From positions 1-64,000 of the forward strand of contig JAKCFJ010000004.1 of the NCBI GenBank assembly GCA_025041175.1: DNA of 64,000 nucleotides. Direction: 5' to 3'. How positions within the stretch are numbered: position 1 is the stretch's first letter; every line of letters starts with the position of its first letter. Below are positions 49,430-63,487 of the stretch, one piece after another. The stretch is from Halobacteriales archaeon YIM A00010 (lineage in GTDB: Archaea; Halobacteriota; Halobacteria; Halobacteriales; Haloarculaceae). Position numbers and translations under genes: made by a program. The notes under the pieces were generated by a model. It was not told the DNA's origin. It was given only the letters and a program-made list of their open reading frames with translations, and ran no database searches.

Positions 49430-51160
49430 TCATTCTCCAAACAGCAGTTCCAGTTCGTGGAAGAACGTAGCAGCCGGTTTCGTTTCGCGGGTGGCTGGCG
49501 TTGGAGGTAGACGACGCTTGTGTCGTGTTTGGAGGTGTCTGTGGGCGTACTGTTCGACCACCTCGGATGTAACTCCACACGTTTTGGCTGTGTGATCGAT
49601 CCCTGCGTCGGTGTCAACGAGATACCAAAGTAGTTCATCGAGCATGTCGTACGCCATGCCTAGCTCGCTTTCATCAGTCTGATTGACATGAAACCCGGCT
49701 GTCGGCGGTTTCTCAATGATCGTTGGTGGGATCTCCATCGTTCTGGCGAGCGCTCGGAGTTCCGTCTTGTATAGCCCGATCAGTGGCTGGAGATCCACGC
49801 CACCGTCGCCGTATTTGGTGAAATAGCCCGTGAGCCACTCGCTGCGGGTGGTCGTGCCGAGCACGAGCCGGTCAGTCGTGTTGGCCATGTAGTAGGCACA
49901 GAGCATCCGGATTCGGGCCACCAGGTTCCCGTGGCTGCGGACGGTCGCCGACGTGGTGAGTGCATCTGGCAATACGTCTTCGATGCGTGTGACCAGCGGA
50001 TGGAGGTTCATCATCGTGTATTCGATGCCGAGCGATTCAGCGAGTTCCACCGCATCGAACGTTGCTGCCTCCGTGGCTTTTCCACAGGGCAGTACCAGTC
50101 CGTGGACGTGGTCGGCTCCTAGGGCTGCGACTGCAAGTGCAGCTGCGACGCTCGAATCTACGCCGCCACTCATGTTGACGACGACTCCCGCAGCACCTGC
50201 CTCAGTGACCTCCGTCTCGATGATGGCTGTCAGCGCATCGTGGAGCTGTAAGAGCATCTCTCGTCCCGCCACGAACGCTGTTGTCGGGTTGGTGTTAGGG
50301 GTCGTGGTAGTGATGTCTTCAATCAGCCGTCGGCTGGTGACAGTGGGAAGCGTTCGTTTGTGGGTCGTTCGGTCGTTGCGATCTGCGTACTGGCGAACCG
50401 TGGACGGATCGAGATGCAGCAGCTCCGCGACCTCTGTGACGCTGTGACGGGTGTCGATCAGCTGGTGGCAGACGGGATCGAGCACCTGGTACGATGCTCC
50501 CAGCTCGGTTTCGTCGGTCTGGCCGGCCCACAACCCGGCTGTTGGTGGTTTTTCGATGATTTCTGCGGGTATCCCCAGAGTCCGAGCGAGTCGACGAACA
50601 TCGGTTTTATAGCAGTCTCCGAGCGGGTGGAGATCTACGCCGCTGTCGCCGTGTTTGGTGAAGTAGCCGAGCAGCTGTTCGGTTCGATTTCCGGTTCCCA
50701 CGACGAGGCTATTTGTGGTGTTGGCCACGTAGTACGCACACGCCATCCGCAGCCGAGCTGCGACGTTGCCGATTGCGTGGCGATCGCCGTTCGTCGATAG
50801 TTCAGGGGCGAATTTGTCTTCAAACAGATCGAGCACGGGCTGGAGTTCGACCGTGTCGTGGGCAATCTCTAGCTCGGTTGCAACCGTGTGGGCGTCACGC
50901 ATGTTCGCGTCGGTGCTCGCAAGCGTGGGCAGACATAATCCATACACGTTGTCAGCACCGACTGCCTCAACAGCGAGTGCAGCAGTCGTTGAAGAGTCGA
51001 TACCGCCGCTCAGGTTCACAACCACACCACACGCATCTGCCGTCTCTACCATCTCCTGAATGAGTGCAACACCCTGCTCCCGGTGCTGGGCAGGGGTTGC
51101 GTCGGTGTCATACGATGCCGTTGACTCTGACTCGGTGGTACTGGTGTCTGAGGTCGCCAT
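49430..51160 (-). CDS. Tandem NAD+ synthetase fusion: two NadE domains in one protein
   Basis: Intact 576-residue protein made of two full NadE domains. The enzyme amidates deamido-NAD+ with ammonia and ATP. Domain 1 (about 25-285) has the pyrophosphate loop VVVNLSGGIDSSTTAALAVE, GTGNRTEQLLGYFTKHGDSG and KPPTAGLWAGQTDETELG. Domain 2 (about 298-570) has VVVNMSGGVDSSVAAALAVA, the variant GTTTRSEWLTGYFTKYGDGG and KPPTAGFHVNQTDESELG. Each domain ends with a THKR-x-LP helix tail. Normal archaeal NadE is a single domain of about 260 residues working as a dimer, so this is an internal dimer. It follows the third NadE gene after one base (TGA-A-ATG). Confidence 0.93.
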   Translation of the reverse strand: MATSDTSTTESESTASYDTDATPAQHREQGVALIQEMVETADACGVVVNLSGGIDSSTTAALAVEAVGADNVYGLCLPTLASTDANMRDAHTVATELEIAHDTVELQPVLDLFEDKFAPELSTNGDRHAIGNVAARLRMACAYYVANTTNSLVVGTGNRTEQLLGYFTKHGDSGVDLHPLGDCYKTDVRRLARTLGIPAEIIEKPPTAGLWAGQTDETELGASYQVLDPVCHQLIDTRHSVTEVAELLHLDPSTVRQYADRNDRTTHKRTLPTVTSRRLIEDITTTTPNTNPTTAFVAGREMLLQLHDALTAIIETEVTEAGAAGVVVNMSGGVDSSVAAALAVAALGADHVHGLVLPCGKATEAATFDAVELAESLGIEYTMMNLHPLVTRIEDVLPDALTTSATVRSHGNLVARIRMLCAYYMANTTDRLVLGTTTRSEWLTGYFTKYGDGGVDLQPLIGLYKTELRALARTMEIPPTIIEKPPTAGFHVNQTDESELGMAYDMLDELLWYLVDTDAGIDHTAKTCGVTSEVVEQYAHRHLQTRHKRRLPPTPATRETKPAATFFHELELLFGE

Positions 51161-51161
51161 T

Positions 51162-52070
51162 TCAGTGTTCCTCCTGTCGGTGTGTCGCTGGTGTTGGTGG
51201 GAGCGAGCGTTTGTGTGCCGTTTCGTCGTGCATCCGGGCGAATTTCGCAACGAGATCCTGCTCGACCGATAGCGCCGTCGCTGTTTCTTCGATGCTGCAG
51301 CCCTCATCGATCACCTTCTGGAGGATGGCATCGATCGTTTCGTGCGTCACAGCAAATTCGTCTTCATCGGTCCGGTCGGCCCACAGTCCTGCTGTTGGCG
51401 GTTTCTGAATGATATGATCTGGAAGATCTAGATACTGCGCGAGCCGATACACGTCCGTTTTGTACAGCTCCCCGAGTGGCAGCAGATCGATCCCGCCGTC
51501 ATCGTACTTGGTGAAATGGCCTAGACAGTGTTCGGTTCGGTTGGTCGTTCCGAGCACAAGCCGGTTTGTCGTGTTCGCCTCGAAGTAGGTAGCCAGCATC
51601 CGGAGGCGGCCTCCAACGTTGCTGACTGCCGTTGTGTAGCCGGGCCGTTCGGTAATCGATGTCGACAACAAGTCGGAAATCCGAGTTGACGAATCAGTCC
51701 GTGCTGTTTGGTCGGCGTCCACTACTGCCATAGCGTCGAGGCAATGTTCTACCAGCGGTTCGATCTCGATCGTTCGAAAGGCGATGCGGAGATCGAACGC
51801 GACGTTCTGTGCCACGGTCGTATCTCCATCTGACGTCGAATCGGTTGGCATCACCAGTCCATACACGTTCTCTGGTCCGAGCGCACGAACAGCGAGCGTC
51901 GCGGCTGTCGTCGAATCGACGCCGCCAGACAGTGCGACTACGATCCCCTCCGTAGCAGACTGACCGACCATCTCCCGGATGAACGACGTACACTCCTTCT
52001 CGATCATTTCGAGATCCCGCTCTGAGCGGGCGTGCTCCGTTCCTGCGTCGTATTCAGTGGTGGTTGACAT
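51162..52070 (-). CDS. nadE: NAD+ synthetase, single-domain paralogue
   Basis: Intact 302-residue NadE. The ATP loop is IVVALSGGVDSTTAATLAVR. The NaAD-binding and dimer motifs are VLGTTNRTEHCLGHFTKYDD, LLPLGELYKTDVYRLAQYLD and KPPTAGLWADRTDEDEFAVT. It has an insertion of about 30 residues around ADQTARTDSSTRISDLLSTS that the other two domains lack. First gene of a two-gene operon with the tandem fusion. A TATA-like box lies about 25 bases before its ATG. It might be the housekeeping enzyme or a specialised copy; without the rest of the genome this is open. Confidence 0.92.
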   Translation of the reverse strand: MSTTTEYDAGTEHARSERDLEMIEKECTSFIREMVGQSATEGIVVALSGGVDSTTAATLAVRALGPENVYGLVMPTDSTSDGDTTVAQNVAFDLRIAFRTIEIEPLVEHCLDAMAVVDADQTARTDSSTRISDLLSTSITERPGYTTAVSNVGGRLRMLATYFEANTTNRLVLGTTNRTEHCLGHFTKYDDGGIDLLPLGELYKTDVYRLAQYLDLPDHIIQKPPTAGLWADRTDEDEFAVTHETIDAILQKVIDEGCSIEETATALSVEQDLVAKFARMHDETAHKRSLPPTPATHRQEEH

Positions 52071-52090: not shown

Positions 52091-52102
52091 GATCTTTTTA
52101 TG
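52091..52102 (-). promoter_or_regulatory. TATA-like box of the NAD+ synthetase operon
   Basis: Minus strand CATAAAAAGATC, 21-32 bases before ATG 52070, the spacing of a leaderless haloarchaeal promoter. Confidence 0.6.
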
Positions 52103-52674: not shown

Positions 52675-53364
52675 TCAACTCCTGAACAGCCGTCGATCAG
52701 CGCGCTCGTGCTCGCTCGAGAGCGTTTCCACGAGCGGGGCGAACGGCGTCATTTCCTCGGGTGCGCGGTCGGCACTGTCCTCAACCGCTACGATCATCGC
52801 TGGGTGAAGATCGTCGAGTACTCTTTGGACGTCCGTGTGCCCCAACCGGAGCAAGCGTTGTGCCGCCCCGAGCAGCCCCGTGACGAAGCCGTGACACGCG
52901 AGCAGACACGCATCACGAGCCGAAATTCCTTCGTGTTCCGTCACGATCCCGAGAATGACTGCGTGGTTGCCTGGAGCGTCGCCGATGTCCACGAGTTCGG
53001 CGTACTCCTCGACCAGGCCATCCCCGCGGAGGTCCGACTGGAGCGCGAGTAACCGCTCGCCAGCTAGCGTCGAGCTCTCGCGGAACTCAGCGGTGAGCGT
53101 GACGGCAGCGAGTCGGTAGTCGGTCTCCATCACAGCCACCAGATTGTTCTCGCTCGCCCTGGCGTGTGCGGCACGGAGCGCCACGAGGTCACCCGGCCCA
53201 AACTGATTTCGGAGATAACTCTCCAACAGCGCGCGGAGGTCGTCGGCATCGGTCACGCGGTCCGTGGCAAGGAACTGTTCGACGCCGTACGAGAGGCTAT
53301 CGGTCCCGATCGGGAGAAACGAGTCAGCGAGCCGCAGTTCCGCGAGCGCGGCCGCATCGCTCAC
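52675..53364 (-). CDS. ureF: Urease accessory protein UreF
   Basis: Intact 229-residue UreF, which with UreD and UreG loads nickel into apo-urease. The all-helical fold shows LAELRLADSFLPIGTDSLSY, the standard N-terminal motif (P-I-G-x-x-x-x-S). SYLRNQFGPGDLVALRAAHA and SARDACLLACHGFVTGLLGA follow. It is the last gene of the operon. Its ATG overlaps the ureE stop by four bases. The C-terminus ends in a charged tail ADRRLFRS. Confidence 0.93.
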   Translation of the reverse strand: MSDAAALAELRLADSFLPIGTDSLSYGVEQFLATDRVTDADDLRALLESYLRNQFGPGDLVALRAAHARASENNLVAVMETDYRLAAVTLTAEFRESSTLAGERLLALQSDLRGDGLVEEYAELVDIGDAPGNHAVILGIVTEHEGISARDACLLACHGFVTGLLGAAQRLLRLGHTDVQRVLDDLHPAMIVAVEDSADRAPEEMTPFAPLVETLSSEHERADRRLFRS

Positions 53365-54014
53365 TCGTCTTCCCTCCTGGTGTCGGGTTTATCTCTCCCC
53401 TTGGCATCACGTCCTCCTCGTGGAGCCTCGATATCGTGGTTCCCATCGACGACGCGTGAGTGGTGGTGGTTGTCGCTGTCGTGTGCATGATGGTCTCCAC
53501 CGTGTGTATGACCGTCGCCACCGTGTCCGTGATTGGATCGTCTCCCCTCGTCGAACAACGTTGGCGAGACCGCCCGATACTCGGTCGTTGCACCGTCGGG
53601 CAACAGCGGTCGAATCTTCTCCTCCATTCGGCCACGGTCATCGGCGATGGGGAGGTAGACTTCAGTACCGCTGACAGCGAGCGACCAATGGCGGTTACCG
53701 GCCGTGTGGCCCAGCGCCACTGCTTCGGTCACGGTGGCCGCGTCGCCATCGACACCGCCGATGTCGAGCACCATCGCTGGCACGGCATTGAGTGCGACGA
53801 GTACCAGCGAGCCATTAGCGTCGAGCGCGTCGCCATCCCGGAGTTCTCGGCCGACGACGATCCCGATGTCGGTCCCGTCGTCAGTGGTAGTTCGGACGCG
53901 CGAGCGTCGACGCTCGGTATCGTCGAGTGTGACTGTCGAGTATTCCTCCAATTCGAGACGCTCGGCGAGCGCTGACTCCTCGATCGATCCGAGATAGGTG
54001 TCGGCGACCAGCAT
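53361..54014 (-). CDS. ureE: Urease nickel metallochaperone UreE with His-rich tail
   Basis: Intact 217-residue UreE. The N-terminal peptide-binding domain (TYLGSIEESALAERLELEEY) is followed by the metal-binding domain with TEAVALGHTAGNRHWSLAVS, where the conserved His lies at the dimer interface. The final 55 residues are a His-rich nickel-storage tail, with NHGHGGDGHTHGGDHHAHDS followed by NHHHS. Start ATG shares one base with the ureD stop (TGATG). The tail is long compared with bacterial UreE and fits high nickel demand. Confidence 0.93.
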   Translation of the reverse strand: MLVADTYLGSIEESALAERLELEEYSTVTLDDTERRRSRVRTTTDDGTDIGIVVGRELRDGDALDANGSLVLVALNAVPAMVLDIGGVDGDAATVTEAVALGHTAGNRHWSLAVSGTEVYLPIADDRGRMEEKIRPLLPDGATTEYRAVSPTLFDEGRRSNHGHGGDGHTHGGDHHAHDSDNHHHSRVVDGNHDIEAPRGGRDAKGRDKPDTRREDE

Positions 54015-54955
54015 CAGTACTTCCTCGGATCGGGGGCTGAAACCCCGAGAAGATCGGTTCGAGCACGATTCCAGGCATTGTCGAGCGCGTCGGTAACTGA
54101 ATCGGCGCTGTGACCGAGCGCACGAACGAGGACGCCCGCGTCATTCGGGAGGGCCGTCGCGCCAGCGCGCGCCTCGCAGTCGGCGACGCGCTTGTGGAGC
54201 GCATCACTCAGGGACGCCGGTTTTGGGCGCTCGTCGGTGACGGAGGATTCATCCGAGGAACTCGCTGCTGGCACGACGACGTACAGGCTACCGTAGACGG
54301 CGAACTCGTCGAGAACACCGGGAGCGGTCGGATCGTCCTGGGCCGGGTGAAGGTCGGTCGTATCGGCGAACAGCAACCCAGCTCCGTCCTGGACCCGCAG
54401 TTGCGAGACGTAGCGCTCGAACTCGAAGTGCTCGTCGCAGGCCAATCGTCCCGGAACGACGACATCGCCGAAGACTGCACAGCTGCCCGGCGCGACGCGG
54501 AGCGTCACGTCCTGATGGTAGCGCGCGTCGGTGTTGAAGACGGTTGGCTCCGGCAAGTACTCGAGATAGCTTCCCCTATCGATGTCGAGCGACACCGAAG
54601 CGGCCGCGTAGTTGTGTTCCATCGAGAGCACTCTGGTTCGGCTCGCGGTCGAGACGTGCGCAATCGCACCTTCACTGGCCGAGATCTCGACCGAATGGCG
54701 ATCGCCCTGTGCGACGCCGCCAGTGGATGACTGGATGTAGACCGTGGCGACGTCGGGATGAAGGTCGTGATCGAGCGCGCGACCGACGTGGAATGGGGCC
54801 TGTGCGAAATCCCGAACCAACTGCGTTCGGCCTGCCTCGTCCGCGGCGAAGGTGAGTTCGAGCCGCCCATCCTTGCCCGGTGCACCGACGGATGCCTGAG
54901 GGACTGTCTCCGTGGCGTACCCCTCGAAGGCCGGATGTGGAGCATCGGCAGCCAT
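54014..54955 (-). CDS. ureD: Urease accessory protein UreD (UreH)
   Basis: Intact 313-residue UreD, the scaffold that binds apo-urease and UreF. Typical features are GKDGRLELTFAADEAGRTQL, VYIQSSTGGVAQGDRHSVEI (the strongly conserved T-G-G-V-x-x-G-D segment), AHVSTASRTRVLSMEHNYAA and RGSYLEYLPEPTVFNTDARY. It ends with the helical region containing DALHKRVADCEARAGATALP. One base overlaps ureE. Upstream it meets ureG directly (stop 54956, start 54955). Confidence 0.93.
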   Translation of the reverse strand: MAADAPHPAFEGYATETVPQASVGAPGKDGRLELTFAADEAGRTQLVRDFAQAPFHVGRALDHDLHPDVATVYIQSSTGGVAQGDRHSVEISASEGAIAHVSTASRTRVLSMEHNYAAASVSLDIDRGSYLEYLPEPTVFNTDARYHQDVTLRVAPGSCAVFGDVVVPGRLACDEHFEFERYVSQLRVQDGAGLLFADTTDLHPAQDDPTAPGVLDEFAVYGSLYVVVPAASSSDESSVTDERPKPASLSDALHKRVADCEARAGATALPNDAGVLVRALGHSADSVTDALDNAWNRARTDLLGVSAPDPRKY

Positions 54956-55579
54956 CTATGCGAACAACACCCCCTCGATGAGGTGATCGAGGATCCTCTC
55001 GATCCCCTCTCCTTCCCGACAGTTAGTGAGCCCAACGGGACCCTCCCGAACCTCGGCCGCGTCTCGCTCCATCGTATCGAGGTCCGCGCCAACGTGGAGC
55101 GCGAGGTCGGTCTTGTTGATGACGAGTAGATCGCACTCCACGACCCCCGGTCCGCGCTTTCGCGGGATGTCCTCGCCCTCGGCCACCGAGATCACGTAGA
55201 GGGAGTAGTCGGCGAGTTCGGGGTTGAATGTTGCCGCGAGGTTGTCGCCGCCACTCTCAACGAGGACGAGGTCGAGGTCGGGATGATCGGCGAGGAAAGA
55301 ATCTATCTGCGCTAAGTTCATCGAGGGGTCCTCACGGATGCCGGTATGGGGACACGCGCCGGTCTCGACACCTGCGACCAAATCCGGCGGGATCAGCCCC
55401 GTAAAGCGCTCGCGGAGCGTGTCGGCGTCCTCCTGGGTCAGGATGTCGTTGGCGATCACGCCCACGTCGAGGTCGCGCTCGGTGAGCTGTGGAACGAGTT
55501 CGGAGACGAGTGCGGTTTTGCCCGACCCCACGGGACCGCCGATCCCAACCGTTGCCACGTCGCGGTGGGTCAGGCTCAC
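54956..55579 (-). CDS. ureG: Urease GTPase UreG
   Basis: Intact 207-residue SIMIBI-class GTPase that drives nickel delivery. Walker A is [20 protein letters not shown]. The metal-binding Cys-Pro-His motif is [20 protein letters not shown]. Further GTPase motifs are [20 protein letters not shown] and [18 protein letters not shown] (N-K-x-D guanine specificity). Its start overlaps the ureA stop by four bases. Confidence 0.95.
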
Positions 55580-55959
55580 GAGTCCGCCCCCGCGGATCTC
55601 GCTCGATGTTTCTCCTCAACGGCTTCCCCGTCGTTCTCCCCGTCGCGTGCTTCCCCGGTTCGGATCGGATCGTGAACCGTGACAAGTTTCGTGCCATCGG
55701 GAAAGACTGGCTCGACCTGGATCGTGTCGACCATCTCGGGCACACCCTGCATCACGTCCTCGGTCGAGAGCAATTGGGTGGCTTCAGTTCGGATCTCCGC
55801 GACGCTCCAGCCGTCGCGTGCGCGCTCGAACACCCAGTCCGAGACGTACGCCACGACCTCGGGATAGTTCAGCGCGACGCCGCGATTCTTCCGGCGTCGC
55901 GCTAGTTCCGCGGCCATGAACACCGTAAGGCGCTCCTGTTCTTTCGGAACGAGGTTCAT
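55576..55959 (-). CDS. ureA: Urease gamma subunit UreA
   Basis: Intact 127-residue gamma subunit. Conserved parts are [20 protein letters not shown] and [20 protein letters not shown], then [20 protein letters not shown] followed by [14 protein letters not shown]. It has a C-terminal charged extension of about 25 residues ([20 protein letters not shown]) beyond the roughly 100-residue bacterial gamma subunit. It lies ten bases after the ureC stop. Confidence 0.95.
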
Positions 55960-55969
55960 CGTGGATCAC

Positions 55970-57691
55970 TCATAGCATGTATCGCTGTGCGAGGGGAAGT
56001 TCGTCGCTCGGTTCGCAGGTCACCGGTACGCCGTCGATCCGAACCTCGAAGGTCTCGGAATCGACGGCGATGTCGTCGGGTGCGTAGCTGTTGTAGTGCA
56101 TGTCGGACTTGTCGAGATCGTGGATGCCCGAGACGGGCACCACGTGGCTGTCAAGGTCGTAGGCCTCGCTCACGCCACCCTCGTAGGCGGCCTCGCTGAC
56201 GAACGTCAACGAGAGTTCCTGCTTCGCACTGCCCATCGCGCCGGCGCGCTCGCGCTGGATGATCGGCTCGCAGGTCATCAGCGAGCCGTTGGCTTCGCCC
56301 ATCGCCGACGATACCGGGAACCCGCTCTTGAAGATCATGTCAGGTTTGATCCCGAAGAACTCCGGTTCCCACACGACGAGGTCGGCGATCTTGCCCGGTT
56401 CGAGGGACCCGACGTACTCGTCGATACCAGCGGTGATCGCGGGGTTAATAGTGTACTTGGCAAGATAGCGCTTGATCCGGTGATTGTCCGCGTCACGGTC
56501 GGCGTTTGCCGACTCTCCATCGGCGGACAGCGGCCCGCGCTGTGCCTTCATCTTGCTCGCGGTTTGCCACGTCCGGGTGACGAGTTCGGCCATCCGACCC
56601 ATCGCCTGGGAGTCAGTGGTCATCATCGAGATCGCACCCATGTCGTGGAGCACGTCCTCGGCCGCAATCGTCTCGGGACGGATGCGCGACTCCGCGAAGG
56701 CCACGTCTTCGGGCACGTCGGGGTTGAGGTGGTGACACACCATCGTCATGTCGAGGTGTTCCTCGAAGGTGTTGACGGTGTAAGGCATCGTAGGATTGGT
56801 CGAGGAGGGGAGCACGTTCGCGTCACCGACCATCGCCATGATGTCGGGCGCGTGGCCACCACCAGCCCCCTCGATGTGAAACAGGTGGATCGTTCGATCG
56901 CCGATCGCCGCGGCCGTGTTCTCCACGAAGCCAGCTTCGTTGAGCGTGTCCGTATGCAGACAGACCTGGATATCGTGTGCATCGGCCACGTCGAGACACG
57001 TATCGATGGTCTCGGGAGTCGCCCCCCAGTCCTCGTGGAGTTTCAGTCCACACGCACCCGCTTCGATCTGCTCTTTGAGTGCGTCAGGCGAGGAGGCGTT
57101 ACCCTTGCCGTAGAACCCGACGTTGACCGGCCACTCCTCGGCAGCGCGCAGGAACAACTCGATGTTCCGCGGTCCTGGAGTACAGGTCGTCGCGCCACCA
57201 CCATAGCCGCCGCCGAGCATCGTGGTGACCCCCGATGCGATCGCGTGCTCGACCAACTGGCCCGAGTTGAAGTGGACGTGGATGTCGAGTGCCCCTGGTG
57301 TGACGATCTTTCCCTCGGCGGGGTAGACATCCGTACTGGGACCCACGACCATGTTCACGCCGTCCATCGTGTCGGGATTGCCCGCCGACCCGATCCTTGC
57401 GACTTCGCCGTTCCGGACGCCAATGTCGGCGGCGAGGATCCCTATTACGGGATCAAGGATGGTCGCGTTCGTGAGCACCCAATCAAGCGCGCCGTCGGCC
57501 TGCGTGACGTGTGGTGTCATTCCCAACCCGTCGCGCAGTGTCTTGCCACCGCCGAAGACCGCCTCGTCGCCGTGGGTGCGTAGGTCCGTCTCGATTTCGG
57601 CGAACAGTTCAGTGTCGCCTAGGCGAATCTGTCCGCCTGTCGTCGGTCCGTAGAGGTCAGTATACGCCTCCCGCGAGAGGTCTCGAGTCAC
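55970..57691 (-). CDS. ureC: Urease alpha (catalytic) subunit UreC
   Basis: Intact 573-residue catalytic subunit that hydrolyses urea to ammonia and carbamate at a dinickel centre. The nickel ligands His-x-His appear in [20 protein letters not shown]. The lysine to be carbamylated is in [20 protein letters not shown]. More ligands and catalytic His lie in [37 protein letters not shown] and [20 protein letters not shown], and the Asp in [20 protein letters not shown]. Its start overlaps the ureB stop by four bases. Length and motifs are those of active ureases. Confidence 0.97.
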
Positions 57692-58077
57692 GGTCTTTCA
57701 CTCTCTTCGTCGTCCTCATCGACGAACCCGGCCGCACGTATCCGTTCGAGCGCTGTATCGAGGGCGTCACCGTCGGTCAGCCCGTTCAGTCCGTAGGCCC
57801 GCTCCTCACCGCCGAGTGTGACCAGTTCGACATCGGTCTCGTCGCCCGGTTCGAACCGGACTGCGGTTCCGGCAGGAACGTTCAGTCGCTTGCCGAAGGC
57901 CGCCTTGCGGTCGAACGCCAGCGCACGGTTCGCCTCGAAGAAGTGGACGTGTGAACCGACCTGTACCGGGCGGTCACCGGTGTTGGCGACATCGAGCGTC
58001 GTGGTCTCCCGGCCCTCGTTGAGGGTTAGGTCGCCGTCACCCGGCCGCACCTCGCCCGGCACTATCCCCTCGGTCAT
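57688..58077 (-). CDS. ureB: Urease beta subunit UreB
   Basis: Intact 129-residue beta subunit, first gene of ureBCAGDEF. The conserved core includes [40 protein letters not shown] and [20 protein letters not shown], and ends YGLNGL. An unusually strong Shine-Dalgarno sequence, GGAGGTGG, sits about seven bases before the ATG; most genes in this window lack one. The gene order beta-alpha-gamma then G-D-E-F is the haloarchaeal arrangement. Confidence 0.95.
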
Positions 58078-59327: not shown

Positions 59328-60704
59328 ATGGAAGAGAACGCACATTCACTGGGTGAAGTTGAGAAAAAGACTGTGAATACAGTTGAAACGGACCAGAAAT
59401 CTCGAAATAACGTTCGACAGCTGGACCCGTCCTCGCGGAACCGACGGGAGTTCCTCGCTGCGAGTGCAGCCGCGGCGGGCACCGTGTTGGCTGGCTGCAG
59501 CGGCAGTACGTCGGGGATACTGGGTGGATCGTCGGACGACGAAGCGGTCACACTCGGCATCCTCGAGGATCGATCAGGCAACTTCGCGTTGAACGGCACG
59601 CCGAAGTACAATGCCAGCATGCTCGCTGTCGAGGAGTTCAACGAGGAAGGCGGTATCCTCGACAAGGAAATCGAGACATTCACTCCAGATCCCCAGTCGG
59701 ATAACTCGCGCTACCAAGAGCTCACGCGTCAGGCCATCCAACGTGAGAACGTCGATGCACTCTGGGCGGGCTACTCCTCGGCGACCCGCGAGACCATCCG
59801 GCCGATCGTCGACCGGAACGAACAACTGTACTTCTACACCACCCAGTACGAGGGTGGAGTCTGCGATCAGTACACCTTCTGCATGGGTGCGACGGCCCGT
59901 CAGCAACTAGGTTCGGTCTTTCCGTATATGGTCGAGGAGTTCGGTTCGAACGTCTACACCATCGCCGCGGACTACAACTTTGGACAACTCTCTGCGGACT
60001 GGGTGCGCGTGCTCGCCGACGAGACCGACGCCAACATCATGGACGAGGAGTTCATTCCGCTTTCGGTTACGGACTTCGGCTCCACGATCAACAACATTCA
60101 GGAAACCGATCCTGATTTCGTGATGGCGCTGCTTGTCGGCCAGAACCACACCTCCTTTTGGAACCAGCGCACCTCCGCCGGACTCGACATTCCAATGGGA
60201 ACTTCCACGGTGATGGCCCAAGGCTACCAGCACCAGCGCCTCGATCCACCCGCGATGGCGGACGTCTACGGCGGATTCAACTACATGCAGGAGATTCCCA
60301 CCGATCGCAACCAGTCGTTCCGAGAGCGCTACTACGAGAAATTCCCCGATGCAGACTACATCAACGAGGAAGCGGTGAACAACTACTTCTCGATCAAGAT
60401 GTACGCCGAGGCCGCCGAGGCGGTAGGCTCGACGGATCAGGCCGACATCATTGAGGAGCTCGAAAGCGGGGTGAATGTCTCTGCCCCGGAAGGCGACATC
60501 TCGCTGCAGGGGTCCATCCATCACATGACACACAATATGCGGGTATTCCGGTGTGACGAGGAGCACAACATCACCGTCGAGGCCCAGGAGATGATCCCCG
60601 AGCAGTTCCTTTCGGAGACCGTCGGGGCTGATCTCACCGAAAAGGACGAAACCACCCAGTACGTCCCAGCGAACTTCTACGAGGAGGCCAATACTACGCA
60701 ATGA
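59328..60704 (+). CDS. urtA: Urea ABC transporter binding lipoprotein UrtA
   Basis: Intact 458-residue substrate-binding protein. After a polar 39-residue lead comes a Tat motif NRREFLAASAAAAGTVLAGC with lipobox LAGC, anchoring it to the membrane. The mature part shows VTLGILEDRSGNFALNGTPK, EEFNEEGGILDKEIETFTPD, YFYTTQYEGGVCDQYTFCMG and AADYNFGQLSADWVRVLADE, all typical of UrtA. Its context next to urease and its distinct sequence from the binding protein at 10293 make urea the likely ligand. It is the first gene of urtABCDE. Confidence 0.93.
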   Translation: MEENAHSLGEVEKKTVNTVETDQKSRNNVRQLDPSSRNRREFLAASAAAAGTVLAGCSGSTSGILGGSSDDEAVTLGILEDRSGNFALNGTPKYNASMLAVEEFNEEGGILDKEIETFTPDPQSDNSRYQELTRQAIQRENVDALWAGYSSATRETIRPIVDRNEQLYFYTTQYEGGVCDQYTFCMGATARQQLGSVFPYMVEEFGSNVYTIAADYNFGQLSADWVRVLADETDANIMDEEFIPLSVTDFGSTINNIQETDPDFVMALLVGQNHTSFWNQRTSAGLDIPMGTSTVMAQGYQHQRLDPPAMADVYGGFNYMQEIPTDRNQSFRERYYEKFPDADYINEEAVNNYFSIKMYAEAAEAVGSTDQADIIEELESGVNVSAPEGDISLQGSIHHMTHNMRVFRCDEEHNITVEAQEMIPEQFLSETVGADLTEKDETTQYVPANFYEEANTTQ

Positions 60705-61630
60705 ATCCCTTCAATCTCTTCTTCCAATTCGCAGATAGCTTCGCATTCATTGTGCTCTCTGCTGTCGGGCTCGCGGTGATCTTCGGGATGATGGGTGTGA
60801 TCAACCTTGGTCACGGCGAGTTTATCATGATCGGTGCATACGGCACGACGCTTGTCGCCAACGCGGGCGCACCGCTCGTGGCCGCAATGATCGTTGGTGT
60901 TATCGTCACAGCGGTGTTCGGCTTTCTCGTCGAGCGAACCATCGTCTCCGGAGCCGCGATCAACTGGGTAGCCGAGCGGACGCTCGGACGCTCCGTAATC
61001 GAACCGCTGTACGACCGGCTGTTGGACTCGATGGTAGCGACATGGGCGATCGGTCTCATCCTCACACAGGGTGTACGTATCGTCTTCGGGAACTCCATTC
61101 CACAGCTCAACACTCCGCTTGGGAGCATCCAGTATGGCGGTTTCTCTTATTCGGTGTATCGGCTAGTGCTTTCGCTCGTCGCGGTTTGTGTGCTCGTGGG
61201 ACTGTATGCCGTGTTTACGCATACGAAGTTCGGAGTACGAGCACGCGCAACGATTCAGGATCCCGAAACAGCTCGCTCGCTCGGTGTGAATACTGACGAG
61301 ATGTACACCACAACGTTCGTCATCGGATCGGCACTGGCGGGGCTGACCGGTGCGCTGTACGCGCCATCGTTGACCGTGGTTCCATCGATGGGTACGTCGT
61401 TTCTGGTCGAGGCATTCGTTGCGGTCGTCGTCGGTGGCCCGTCAGTCCTGTTTGGAACGACGCTCTCGGGCGGCTTGCTCGGCGCGATCAACGCGCTGTT
61501 CACTAACCTGTACGGCACGTTCTTCGGCCAGATCGCCATGCTGTTGACCGCTATCCTCGTTATCCGGCTGCTGTCGAACGGGCTGACGGGGCTAGTCGAG
61601 ACTGTTCGCGACCGCAAGGTGGGTGAGTAA
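60701..61630 (+). CDS. urtB: Urea ABC transporter permease UrtB
   Basis: Intact 309-residue permease with eight or more membrane helices. The family motif is VIFGMMGVINLGHGEFIMIG. The ATPase-contact loop is RATIQDPETARSLGVNTDEM. AFVAVVVGGPSVLFGTTLSG is the conserved late segment. The ATG overlaps the urtA stop by four bases (60701-60704). Confidence 0.94.
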   Translation: MNPFNLFFQFADSFAFIVLSAVGLAVIFGMMGVINLGHGEFIMIGAYGTTLVANAGAPLVAAMIVGVIVTAVFGFLVERTIVSGAAINWVAERTLGRSVIEPLYDRLLDSMVATWAIGLILTQGVRIVFGNSIPQLNTPLGSIQYGGFSYSVYRLVLSLVAVCVLVGLYAVFTHTKFGVRARATIQDPETARSLGVNTDEMYTTTFVIGSALAGLTGALYAPSLTVVPSMGTSFLVEAFVAVVVGGPSVLFGTTLSGGLLGAINALFTNLYGTFFGQIAMLLTAILVIRLLSNGLTGLVETVRDRKVGE

Positions 61631-61631
61631 G

Positions 61632-62714
61632 ATGGGGCCTGCAAGCGCATTCGATCGAGCGCGTGCGCCCTTCGAGGGACCGAACACGGCTGGTAACACC
61701 CGTGGGTTTTGGATCGGCTTCCTCGCCGTGTTCGCGGTGCTGTTGATCTATCCGCTGCTGTTCGGCGCATACGCTGCGTCGAACGCCGCACAGTTCCTCT
61801 TCTCGGCGATCCTAGGACTCTCACTATGTTTCGTCTGGGGGTACGCCGGTATTCTCAGTTTCGGCCAGGTGGTGTTCTATGGTATCGCCGGTTACACCTT
61901 TGGTCTCCTGAGCCTCAACTTCGGGAGTGCGCTCGTCACCACGCTCGCGCTCCCAGCCGCCGTCGCAATCGCCACGCTCGGGGCGTTCGTACTCGGCTAC
62001 TTCATGTTCTACGGCGAAGTTCGCGATGTCTACGTCACGATCCTTACCCTCGTGGTGACGCTCGTGTTGTACACCTTCATGGGCCAGACCGCGGGCAGCG
62101 AGTGGACGATCGGGTCGGTCGCGCTGGGCGGATTCAACGGAATGCCCGCGATCCCGAACCTCACTCTCGGCGTCGACGAGAGCGCACTGCGGCTCTCGGG
62201 GGCGACGTTCTACTGGTTCACCCTGCTCTCGCTTGCAGTGATCTATCTCGGTCTCCGCGCGCTGGTGAACGGCCGATTCGGCTATACGATGGTCGCGGTT
62301 CGGGAAGACGAGGACCGCACGCAGATGCTCGGTTACGACGTGCGGCGGGTCAAACTCCTCGTGTTCGTCATCGGTGGCGCGCTGGCCGGTTTCGCGGGCG
62401 TCCTCTACGCGACGTGGGGTAACTACATCAACCCGGATGTGTTCGGGATCACCTTCGCCTCGATCCCCGTGGTCTGGGTCACCGTGGGCGGACGGCGCTC
62501 ACTGCTGGGTGCGATCGTCGCTACGGTCGCCATTGAGTGGTTCCGCCAGCAACTCGCCGTGACGGGTAGCCAGTACGCCATCGTGGTCGTGGGCGCGTTG
62601 TTGCTGGCGGTCGTGCTCGTGCTTCCGGAAGGGGTCGTGCCATGGATGCGCGCCCGGCTTCGAAACCGCTCGGAGCACCCCCAGTCGACCGACAGCACGG
62701 GGGTGGTCGAATGA
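61632..62714 (+). CDS. urtC: Urea ABC transporter permease UrtC
   Basis: Intact 360-residue permease. LCFVWGYAGILSFGQVVFYG is the LivM/UrtC hallmark. The coupling loop is MVAVREDEDRTQMLGYDVRR. GNYINPDVFGITFASIPVVW is typical of UrtC. ATG at 61632 is one base after the urtB stop; an in-frame GTG at 61623 would overlap urtB. Its stop overlaps the urtD ATG by four bases. Confidence 0.94.
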   Translation: MGPASAFDRARAPFEGPNTAGNTRGFWIGFLAVFAVLLIYPLLFGAYAASNAAQFLFSAILGLSLCFVWGYAGILSFGQVVFYGIAGYTFGLLSLNFGSALVTTLALPAAVAIATLGAFVLGYFMFYGEVRDVYVTILTLVVTLVLYTFMGQTAGSEWTIGSVALGGFNGMPAIPNLTLGVDESALRLSGATFYWFTLLSLAVIYLGLRALVNGRFGYTMVAVREDEDRTQMLGYDVRRVKLLVFVIGGALAGFAGVLYATWGNYINPDVFGITFASIPVVWVTVGGRRSLLGAIVATVAIEWFRQQLAVTGSQYAIVVVGALLLAVVLVLPEGVVPWMRARLRNRSEHPQSTDSTGVVE

Positions 62715-63487
62715 GCGGGACACGGGATCCCGCAGTCAGGCAATCACCAGCGGTGCGGGCCACCGGGTCCGATACAGACACCCTTCTCCAGACCGACGGC
62801 GTCACCAAGCGCTTTGGCGGGTTCACCGCGATCGACGGCATCGATTTCGGGGTCAATACTGCCGAGCTCCGGTGTTTGATTGGGCCGAATGGTGCTGGCA
62901 AGTCCACGCTGTTGAAGCTGATCACCGGCCAGCACTCGGTCACCGACGGGGAGGTCTACTATCGCGGTGAGGGGATAACCGATCTGTTGCCCCACGAGCG
63001 AGTAGACCGTGGTATTGGCATGAAGTTCCAAGTACCGAGTGTCTTCGACGACCTCACCGCCGCAGGGAACCTGCGGCTTCCGCTCCAGCGTGTGGTGACC
63101 AACGGCGACCTCGCGGCGCGTGTACAGGAGGCGCTCGATCGGGTCGGTCTGTCGGACCGAGCCGATACGCACGCCTCGGAACTGTCCCACGGCGAACAAC
63201 AGCACCTCGAGATCGGCATGGCGGTGGCGCTCGATCCCGACCTCCTGTTGCTCGACGAACCGGTTGCGGGACTCTCCATGGAAGAACGCAACGACATCGC
63301 CGACCTCGTGACAGCACTCAACGGCGACGGGATCGCGTTCGTCGTCATCGAGCACGACATCGACTTTGTCGCGCGAATTGCCGACGAGGTCACCGTGCTT
63401 CACCAGGGCGCGGTCTTCCGCGAGGGGCCCATCGAGCAGATCCGCACCGACGAGAAAGTCCGTCGTATTTACCTGGGGGGTGACTGA
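62711..63487 (+). CDS. urtD: Urea ABC transporter ATPase UrtD
   Basis: Intact ATPase of about 258 residues. Walker A is LIGPNGAGKSTLLKLITGQH. The Q-loop region is RGIGMKFQVPSVFDDLTAAG, with the fused KFQVP typical of UrtD. The signature is ELSHGEQQHLEIGMAVALDP, Walker B is LLLLDEPVAGLSMEERND and the H-loop is IAFVVIEHDIDFVARIADEV. Start ATG at 62711 overlaps urtC. Confidence 0.95.
   Translation: MSGTRDPAVRQSPAVRATGSDTDTLLQTDGVTKRFGGFTAIDGIDFGVNTAELRCLIGPNGAGKSTLLKLITGQHSVTDGEVYYRGEGITDLLPHERVDRGIGMKFQVPSVFDDLTAAGNLRLPLQRVVTNGDLAARVQEALDRVGLSDRADTHASELSHGEQQHLEIGMAVALDPDLLLLDEPVAGLSMEERNDIADLVTALNGDGIAFVVIEHDIDFVARIADEVTVLHQGAVFREGPIEQIRTDEKVRRIYLGGD

Follow-up and report, generated by a model that had tools for sequence, protein, structure and literature searches.

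A double NadE protein of haloarchaea with nitrogen-gene neighbours and loss of catalytic residues from its second half in many relatives

Introduction

Archaeal single-domain NadE uses ammonia, and most archaea rely on such enzymes; the donor in vivo is an open question (PMC3376133). For the glutamine-type NadE, binding of PII relieves feedback inhibition by NAD, and PII–nadE islands occur in archaea (PMC7196632). PII control of the NH3-type enzyme has been proposed and remains an open question (PMC7196632). In Azospirillum, the NH3-type NadE is not bound by the PII protein GlnZ (PMC7646526), a result that, by analogy, would count against a reading of our locus based on PII control. A limited literature search, with subscription papers outside its reach, found no description of a NadE protein in which one synthetase domain is fused to another.

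Here we describe such a protein, encoded beside a urease cluster in a haloarchaeon. The window, by which we mean the whole stretch of 64,000 nucleotides that was analysed, opens an 812-kb contig (C4), and a congener of the source organism matches Halocatena salina.

A double NadE protein in tandem with a third NadE gene

The NadE genes of the window have the following features, in which reference residues are the 28 that are invariant across twelve diverse NadE:

49430..51160, minus strand: double NadE protein P0001, ATG to stop, 576 aa (translation, Pfam, NCBIfam; AlphaFold2 pTM 0.85)
50321..51088, minus strand: NadE domain D1 of P0001, residues about 25–280, with 28/28 reference residues
50993..51010, minus strand: D1 P-loop SGGIDS, residues 51–56 (translation)
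49481..50248, minus strand: NadE domain D2 of P0001, residues about 305–560, with 26/28 reference residues (N to T, V to L)
50153..50170, minus strand: D2 P-loop SGGVDS, residues 331–336 (translation)
51162..52070, minus strand: free NadE-like protein P0002, 302 aa, with an insertion; P-loop intact, 4/28 reference residues changed

Consistent with the original prediction of two complete NadE domains in one 576-residue chain, the Pfam model PF02540 matched P0001 over two stretches (498.6 bits, against 227.5 bits for P0002 and a cut-off of 21 bits), and translation placed the P-loops, including the next serine, at residues 51 (SGGIDSS) and 331 (SGGVDSS). The prediction was also right that a third NadE gene lies immediately upstream, as a single base separates the P0002 stop from the P0001 start codon. 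Both proteins exceeded the cut-off of 255 of the NCBIfam NAD synthase equivalog NF010587 (P0001, 555.2; P0002, 267), and the Pfam and NCBIfam matches of neither included a nitrilase (glutaminase) domain. By their model scores, P-loops and invariant residues, and with no glutaminase domain, P0001 and P0002 are of the ammonia-dependent NadE type. P0001 departs from the NadE homodimer, which has one synthetase domain per chain, in carrying two in an intact frame. We conclude that it is a real, conserved variant of the known NadE family.

AlphaFold2 predicted two NadE folds for P0001 (pTM 0.85), and the top PDB matches of the protein, 2e18, 1xng and 3fiu, each aligned to a single NadE domain. D1 and D2 may be arranged like the usual NadE dimer, which would make P0001 a covalent pseudo-dimer.

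Two further details of the original prediction hold. D2 reads GTTTRSE where D1 has GTGNRTE and P0002 has GTTNRTE, and the insertion of about 30 residues in P0002 is real and partly common to its relatives. We rejected GTTTRSE, taken alone, as a sign of lost function, because the asparagine is not universal: E. coli NadE has histidine at this position (GTDHAAE).

Distribution and origin of the fusion

Identity between D1 and D2 is 48% at the protein level and 53% at the DNA level, and P0002 shares 43–46% with either domain, so P0001 is neither a recent tandem copy nor an assembly duplicate. An assembly artefact is further ruled out by the presence of the same fusion in other genera. The domains thus lack the identical DNA that would have marked such an artefact, and nor is this a nadE duplicated without divergence.

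The original prediction had proposed a search of haloarchaeal genomes for the same fusion; among the 392 genomes of the order, 13 carry a double NadE. These belong to four genera, which match Halocatena, Haladaptatus, a Haladaptatus relative and Halobaculum; a 14th genome in the distribution list matches D1 only and is not counted. A contig scan with P0001 returned just distant NadE of bacteria and of one non-halophilic archaeon, and a viral fold search returned PP-loop relatives only. We compared 15 fusion proteins from the four genera, and the reading frame is intact in every one. In quick trees with SH-aLRT support, all D1 domains formed one clade (92–96) and all D2 domains another (99). 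Judging from these trees, the fusion most likely arose once, by duplication and fusion.

NadE copies in the source genome

The source genome contains seven full NadE domains and one fragment. These are a housekeeping copy on another contig (C1), a copy near suf genes, a copy at 70 kb on C4 in a region of nitrate assimilation and glnA, the trio of D1, D2 and P0002, and a second P0002-like copy, accompanied by the D1 fragment, at 90 kb. The last pair lies a few kb from an Amt–GlnK fusion. A separate housekeeping nadE, whose presence the original prediction had asked about, is thus retained here, and an intact one was found in every fusion genome searched, which rules out the fusion as its replacement. 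Next to the NadE fragment in the source genome is a gene for a membrane protein that has a TrkA_N domain (PF02254; L010:6064-6819), and such a gene also directly adjoins the double NadE of genome G041 (L049:7547-8302).

Residue loss and selection in the two halves

Scoring the three domains of the window for conserved NadE residues gave 28/28 for D1, 26/28 for D2 and 24/28 for P0002. Across the family, D1 loses 0–2 reference residues in every fusion. D2 loses similarly few (0–2) in the source genome (G000), G041, Haladaptatus, G248 and Halobaculum CBA1158, and three in H. salina, where its P-loop reads SGS. In the nine other fusion proteins (9/15), D2 has lost 10–14 reference residues, among them the P-loop, the P2 loop and the ATP/Mg-site glutamate and lysine; we refer to these domains as dead D2. 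Such catalytic loss occurred at least two times, in G044/G039 and within Halobaculum. AlphaFold2 again predicted two NadE folds for a relative with a dead D2 (pTM 0.83), with low confidence in the P2-loop region of D2.

The losses in dead D2 are not evenly spread. E134, Y139, K158, Q187 and Y197 are kept in none of the nine, and S30 and D34 in one, whereas all nine keep R109, R111, P57, T141, G144, P152 and D201. The catalytic positions lost there are retained in all nine sister D1 domains. In three close pairs, dN/dS was 0.23, 0.33 and 0.22 for dead D2, compared with 0.12, 0.11 and 0.16 for D1; by this ratio, dead D2 is still under purifying selection, though relaxed. The helix with R109 and R111 is, in the B. 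subtilis structures, part of the dimer interface and in contact with NaAD. Because dead D2 keeps the helix arginines and loses the ATP residues, the pattern fits a half that lacks ATP chemistry and still completes the cleft of its partner.

The original prediction of a built-in heterodimer or division of labour is therefore supported by the comparison with relatives, where D2 is dead in 9 of 15 proteins and D1 intact, and not in the window itself, whose D2 is nearly intact. From its residues, D2 of the source organism probably still catalyses. That the second copy is retained even where it is dead suggests that it has taken on a structural or regulatory role linked to nitrogen supply.

P0002 varies too. 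Its four changes in the window are Y139H, G144D, Q187R and Y197H. In G122 and G118, members of the P0002 clade are intact; a G041 relative has seven changes, Haladaptatus and G248 have sixteen to eighteen, and H. salina is left with a 79-aa deletion remnant. On the H. salina plasmid, fragments of ureC and ureD lie near an intact double NadE that is 95% identical (L043:3022-5320). From these fragments, it appears that H. salina kept the fusion and lost both P0002 and this urease cluster.

Genes around the NadE paralogs

Upstream of the NadE pair we noted two further features:

52095..52101, minus strand: ATAAAAA, putative TATA element 25–31 nt upstream of the P0002 start (sequence only)
52675..58077, minus strand: urease cluster, ureB-C-A-G-D-E-F in transcription order (ORF reading), ending 605 bp upstream of P0002

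The AT-rich element just before the P0002 start makes a promoter of their own plausible for P0002 and P0001, and suggests that the pair may be transcribed from it. Past the urease genes, the opposite strand carries ABC transporter-like genes, possibly for urea (window 59328-63487).

The order seen in the window recurs in G122, a different genus, where a P0002-type NadE gene and another NadE gene come after the urease genes (L138). In G064, a single NadE close to ureF has lost 14/28 reference residues; this stand-alone pseudo-NadE has a degenerate P-loop, DGSVETA (L172:7877-8728).

In other genomes the neighbours are genes of ammonium transport and PII. Haladaptatus pallidirubidus has the order amt, glnK, P0002-type NadE, double NadE; in G248, glnK adjoins the P0002-type and double NadE genes; and G161 and G153 have amt-glnK-nadE with glnA alongside, each with another nadE elsewhere. 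In these four cases nadE lies beside glnK, as in a PII–NadE island. In the window, neither amt nor glnK was found as a direct neighbour of P0001 or P0002, where urease lies upstream instead; the nearest that we found is the Amt–GlnK fusion about 84 kb into the contig. A single frame of 606 aa encodes its Amt and P-II domains (L010:1198-3018; G000 C4, about 84–86 kb), and such a fusion may be common, to judge from the long open frames that surround glnK in many relatives. The NadE that follows amt-glnK in G161 has a C-terminal winged-helix match (PF13592, E 4.3e-7) and is a possible NadE–HTH fusion (L135:7611-8705).

Overall, NadE lay within 1.5 kb of glnK in 3 of 30 glnK loci, and within 1.5 kb of ureF in 2 of 30 ureF loci, one of them the window. 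The loci are few, come from related genomes and are not independent, so the link between NadE paralogs and nitrogen genes is suggestive rather than measured. The Halobaculum fusions had no obvious nitrogen neighbour within 12 kb and adjoin a DUF7331-like small protein and a putative transcriptional regulator. In G044 and G039, the double NadE precedes two genes that overlap, one encoding a YqcI/YcgG protein (PF08892) and the other a hydrolase of the isochorismatase family (PF00857; L050:7528-8963 and L051:7260-8695), beyond which are carbonic anhydrase-like, proS-like and gltB-like genes.

Discussion

We favour, with a probability of about 0.55, the explanation that this is an accessory, nitrogen-linked NAD synthetase in the form of a covalent pseudo-dimer that is drifting towards one catalytic and one non-catalytic half. 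P0001 and P0002 would be an ammonia-dependent set that works apart from the housekeeping nadE and is wired to nitrogen supply. P0001 would derive from an ammonia-type NadE that duplicated and fused once, and would fold as a pseudo-symmetric NadE dimer. D1 would be the conserved catalytic half, adenylating NaAD with ATP and accepting ammonia, which in this organism could plausibly come from urease. D2 would be the second half of the dimer, drifting across the family towards a pseudoenzyme with the shared-cleft helix but no ATP chemistry, and P0002 may be a further subunit or isozyme decaying in parallel. In this scheme we infer the activity of P0001, its use of NaAD and any control by nitrogen status or PII. 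It is also conceivable, if rather doubtful, that the fusion is an evolving heterodimer of enzyme and pseudoenzyme whose D2, together with P0002, senses nitrogen status as an allosteric receptor, perhaps offering GlnK a surface for docking, and so gates an ammonia-type NadE that has no glutaminase domain.

A simpler account is dosage alone, in which redundant nadE paralogs pile up on the megaplasmids of haloarchaea, with fusion and decay both neutral. The seven NadE domains and fragment of the source genome, the erosion of P0002 and of a second copy, the H. salina remnant and the transposase genes around the loci are all in keeping with it. Neutral decay, however, is expected to break the frame and strike residues at random, whereas no fusion has lost its frame, D1 loses almost nothing, and dead D2 combines a dN/dS of 0.22–0.33 with a specific set of residues that all nine retain. 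We therefore regard dosage alone as unlikely. Somewhat less likely again is a changed substrate, by which the paralogs would amidate another carboxylate, such as NaMN (as in the Francisella-type NMN synthetase) or a secondary metabolite. The Francisella enzyme (3fiu) is among the top structural matches, parts of the NadE family tree have long branches, and the G044 and G039 fusions sit in a run with the YqcI/YcgG and isochorismatase genes; but D1 of the window keeps every reference residue, the equivalog cut-off is exceeded, and the neighbours are mostly nitrogen-assimilation genes and not one shared pathway.

The original prediction had also raised NAD+ replenishment as in defence. Extra NAD synthesis could in general offset an NAD-depleting attack, and a plasmid location would suit such a role. 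PADLOC, however, gave no convincing match for the NadE proteins or the tested neighbours, with weak QueC and Csm6 scores only, and the neighbours that recur in the loci read are nitrogen genes and not defence genes. We consider a role in defence very improbable.

Under the favoured reading of an accessory, nitrogen-linked pseudo-dimer, the series of fusions, from both halves intact to one dead, records stages by which a pseudoenzyme arises within one chain, and could reveal the residues of a second subunit on which a NadE active site depends. The paralogs recur with amt-glnK, glnA, urease, gltB or nitrate genes, which makes them natural test cases for ammonia supply and PII control.

Comparison with known systems

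The closest described proteins are the single-domain, ammonia-dependent archaeal NadE, such as M. jannaschii NADS and the P. horikoshii enzyme (2e18), with which each P0001 domain shares the fold, P-loop and invariant residues. 2e18 is 41% identical to P0001 over the best aligned domain and likewise has no glutaminase domain. Unlike these enzymes, P0001 has two synthetase domains per chain and a third gene in tandem, P0001 and P0002 are accessory to a housekeeping copy, and D2 loses catalytic residues in many relatives. The Francisella NMN synthetase has the NadE fold and ammonia type in common with P0001 and sets a precedent for substrate change; it is a single-domain protein, whereas P0001 has two domains. 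With PII–NadE islands (PMC7196632), the loci of Haladaptatus, G248, G161 and G153 share a NadE beside glnK and a possible coupling of NAD synthesis to nitrogen status. The NadE studied there are mainly glutamine-dependent, two-domain enzymes (PMC7196632), whereas the haloarchaeal fusion is of the NH3 type and joins synthetase to synthetase, and in the window its neighbour is urease rather than glnK.
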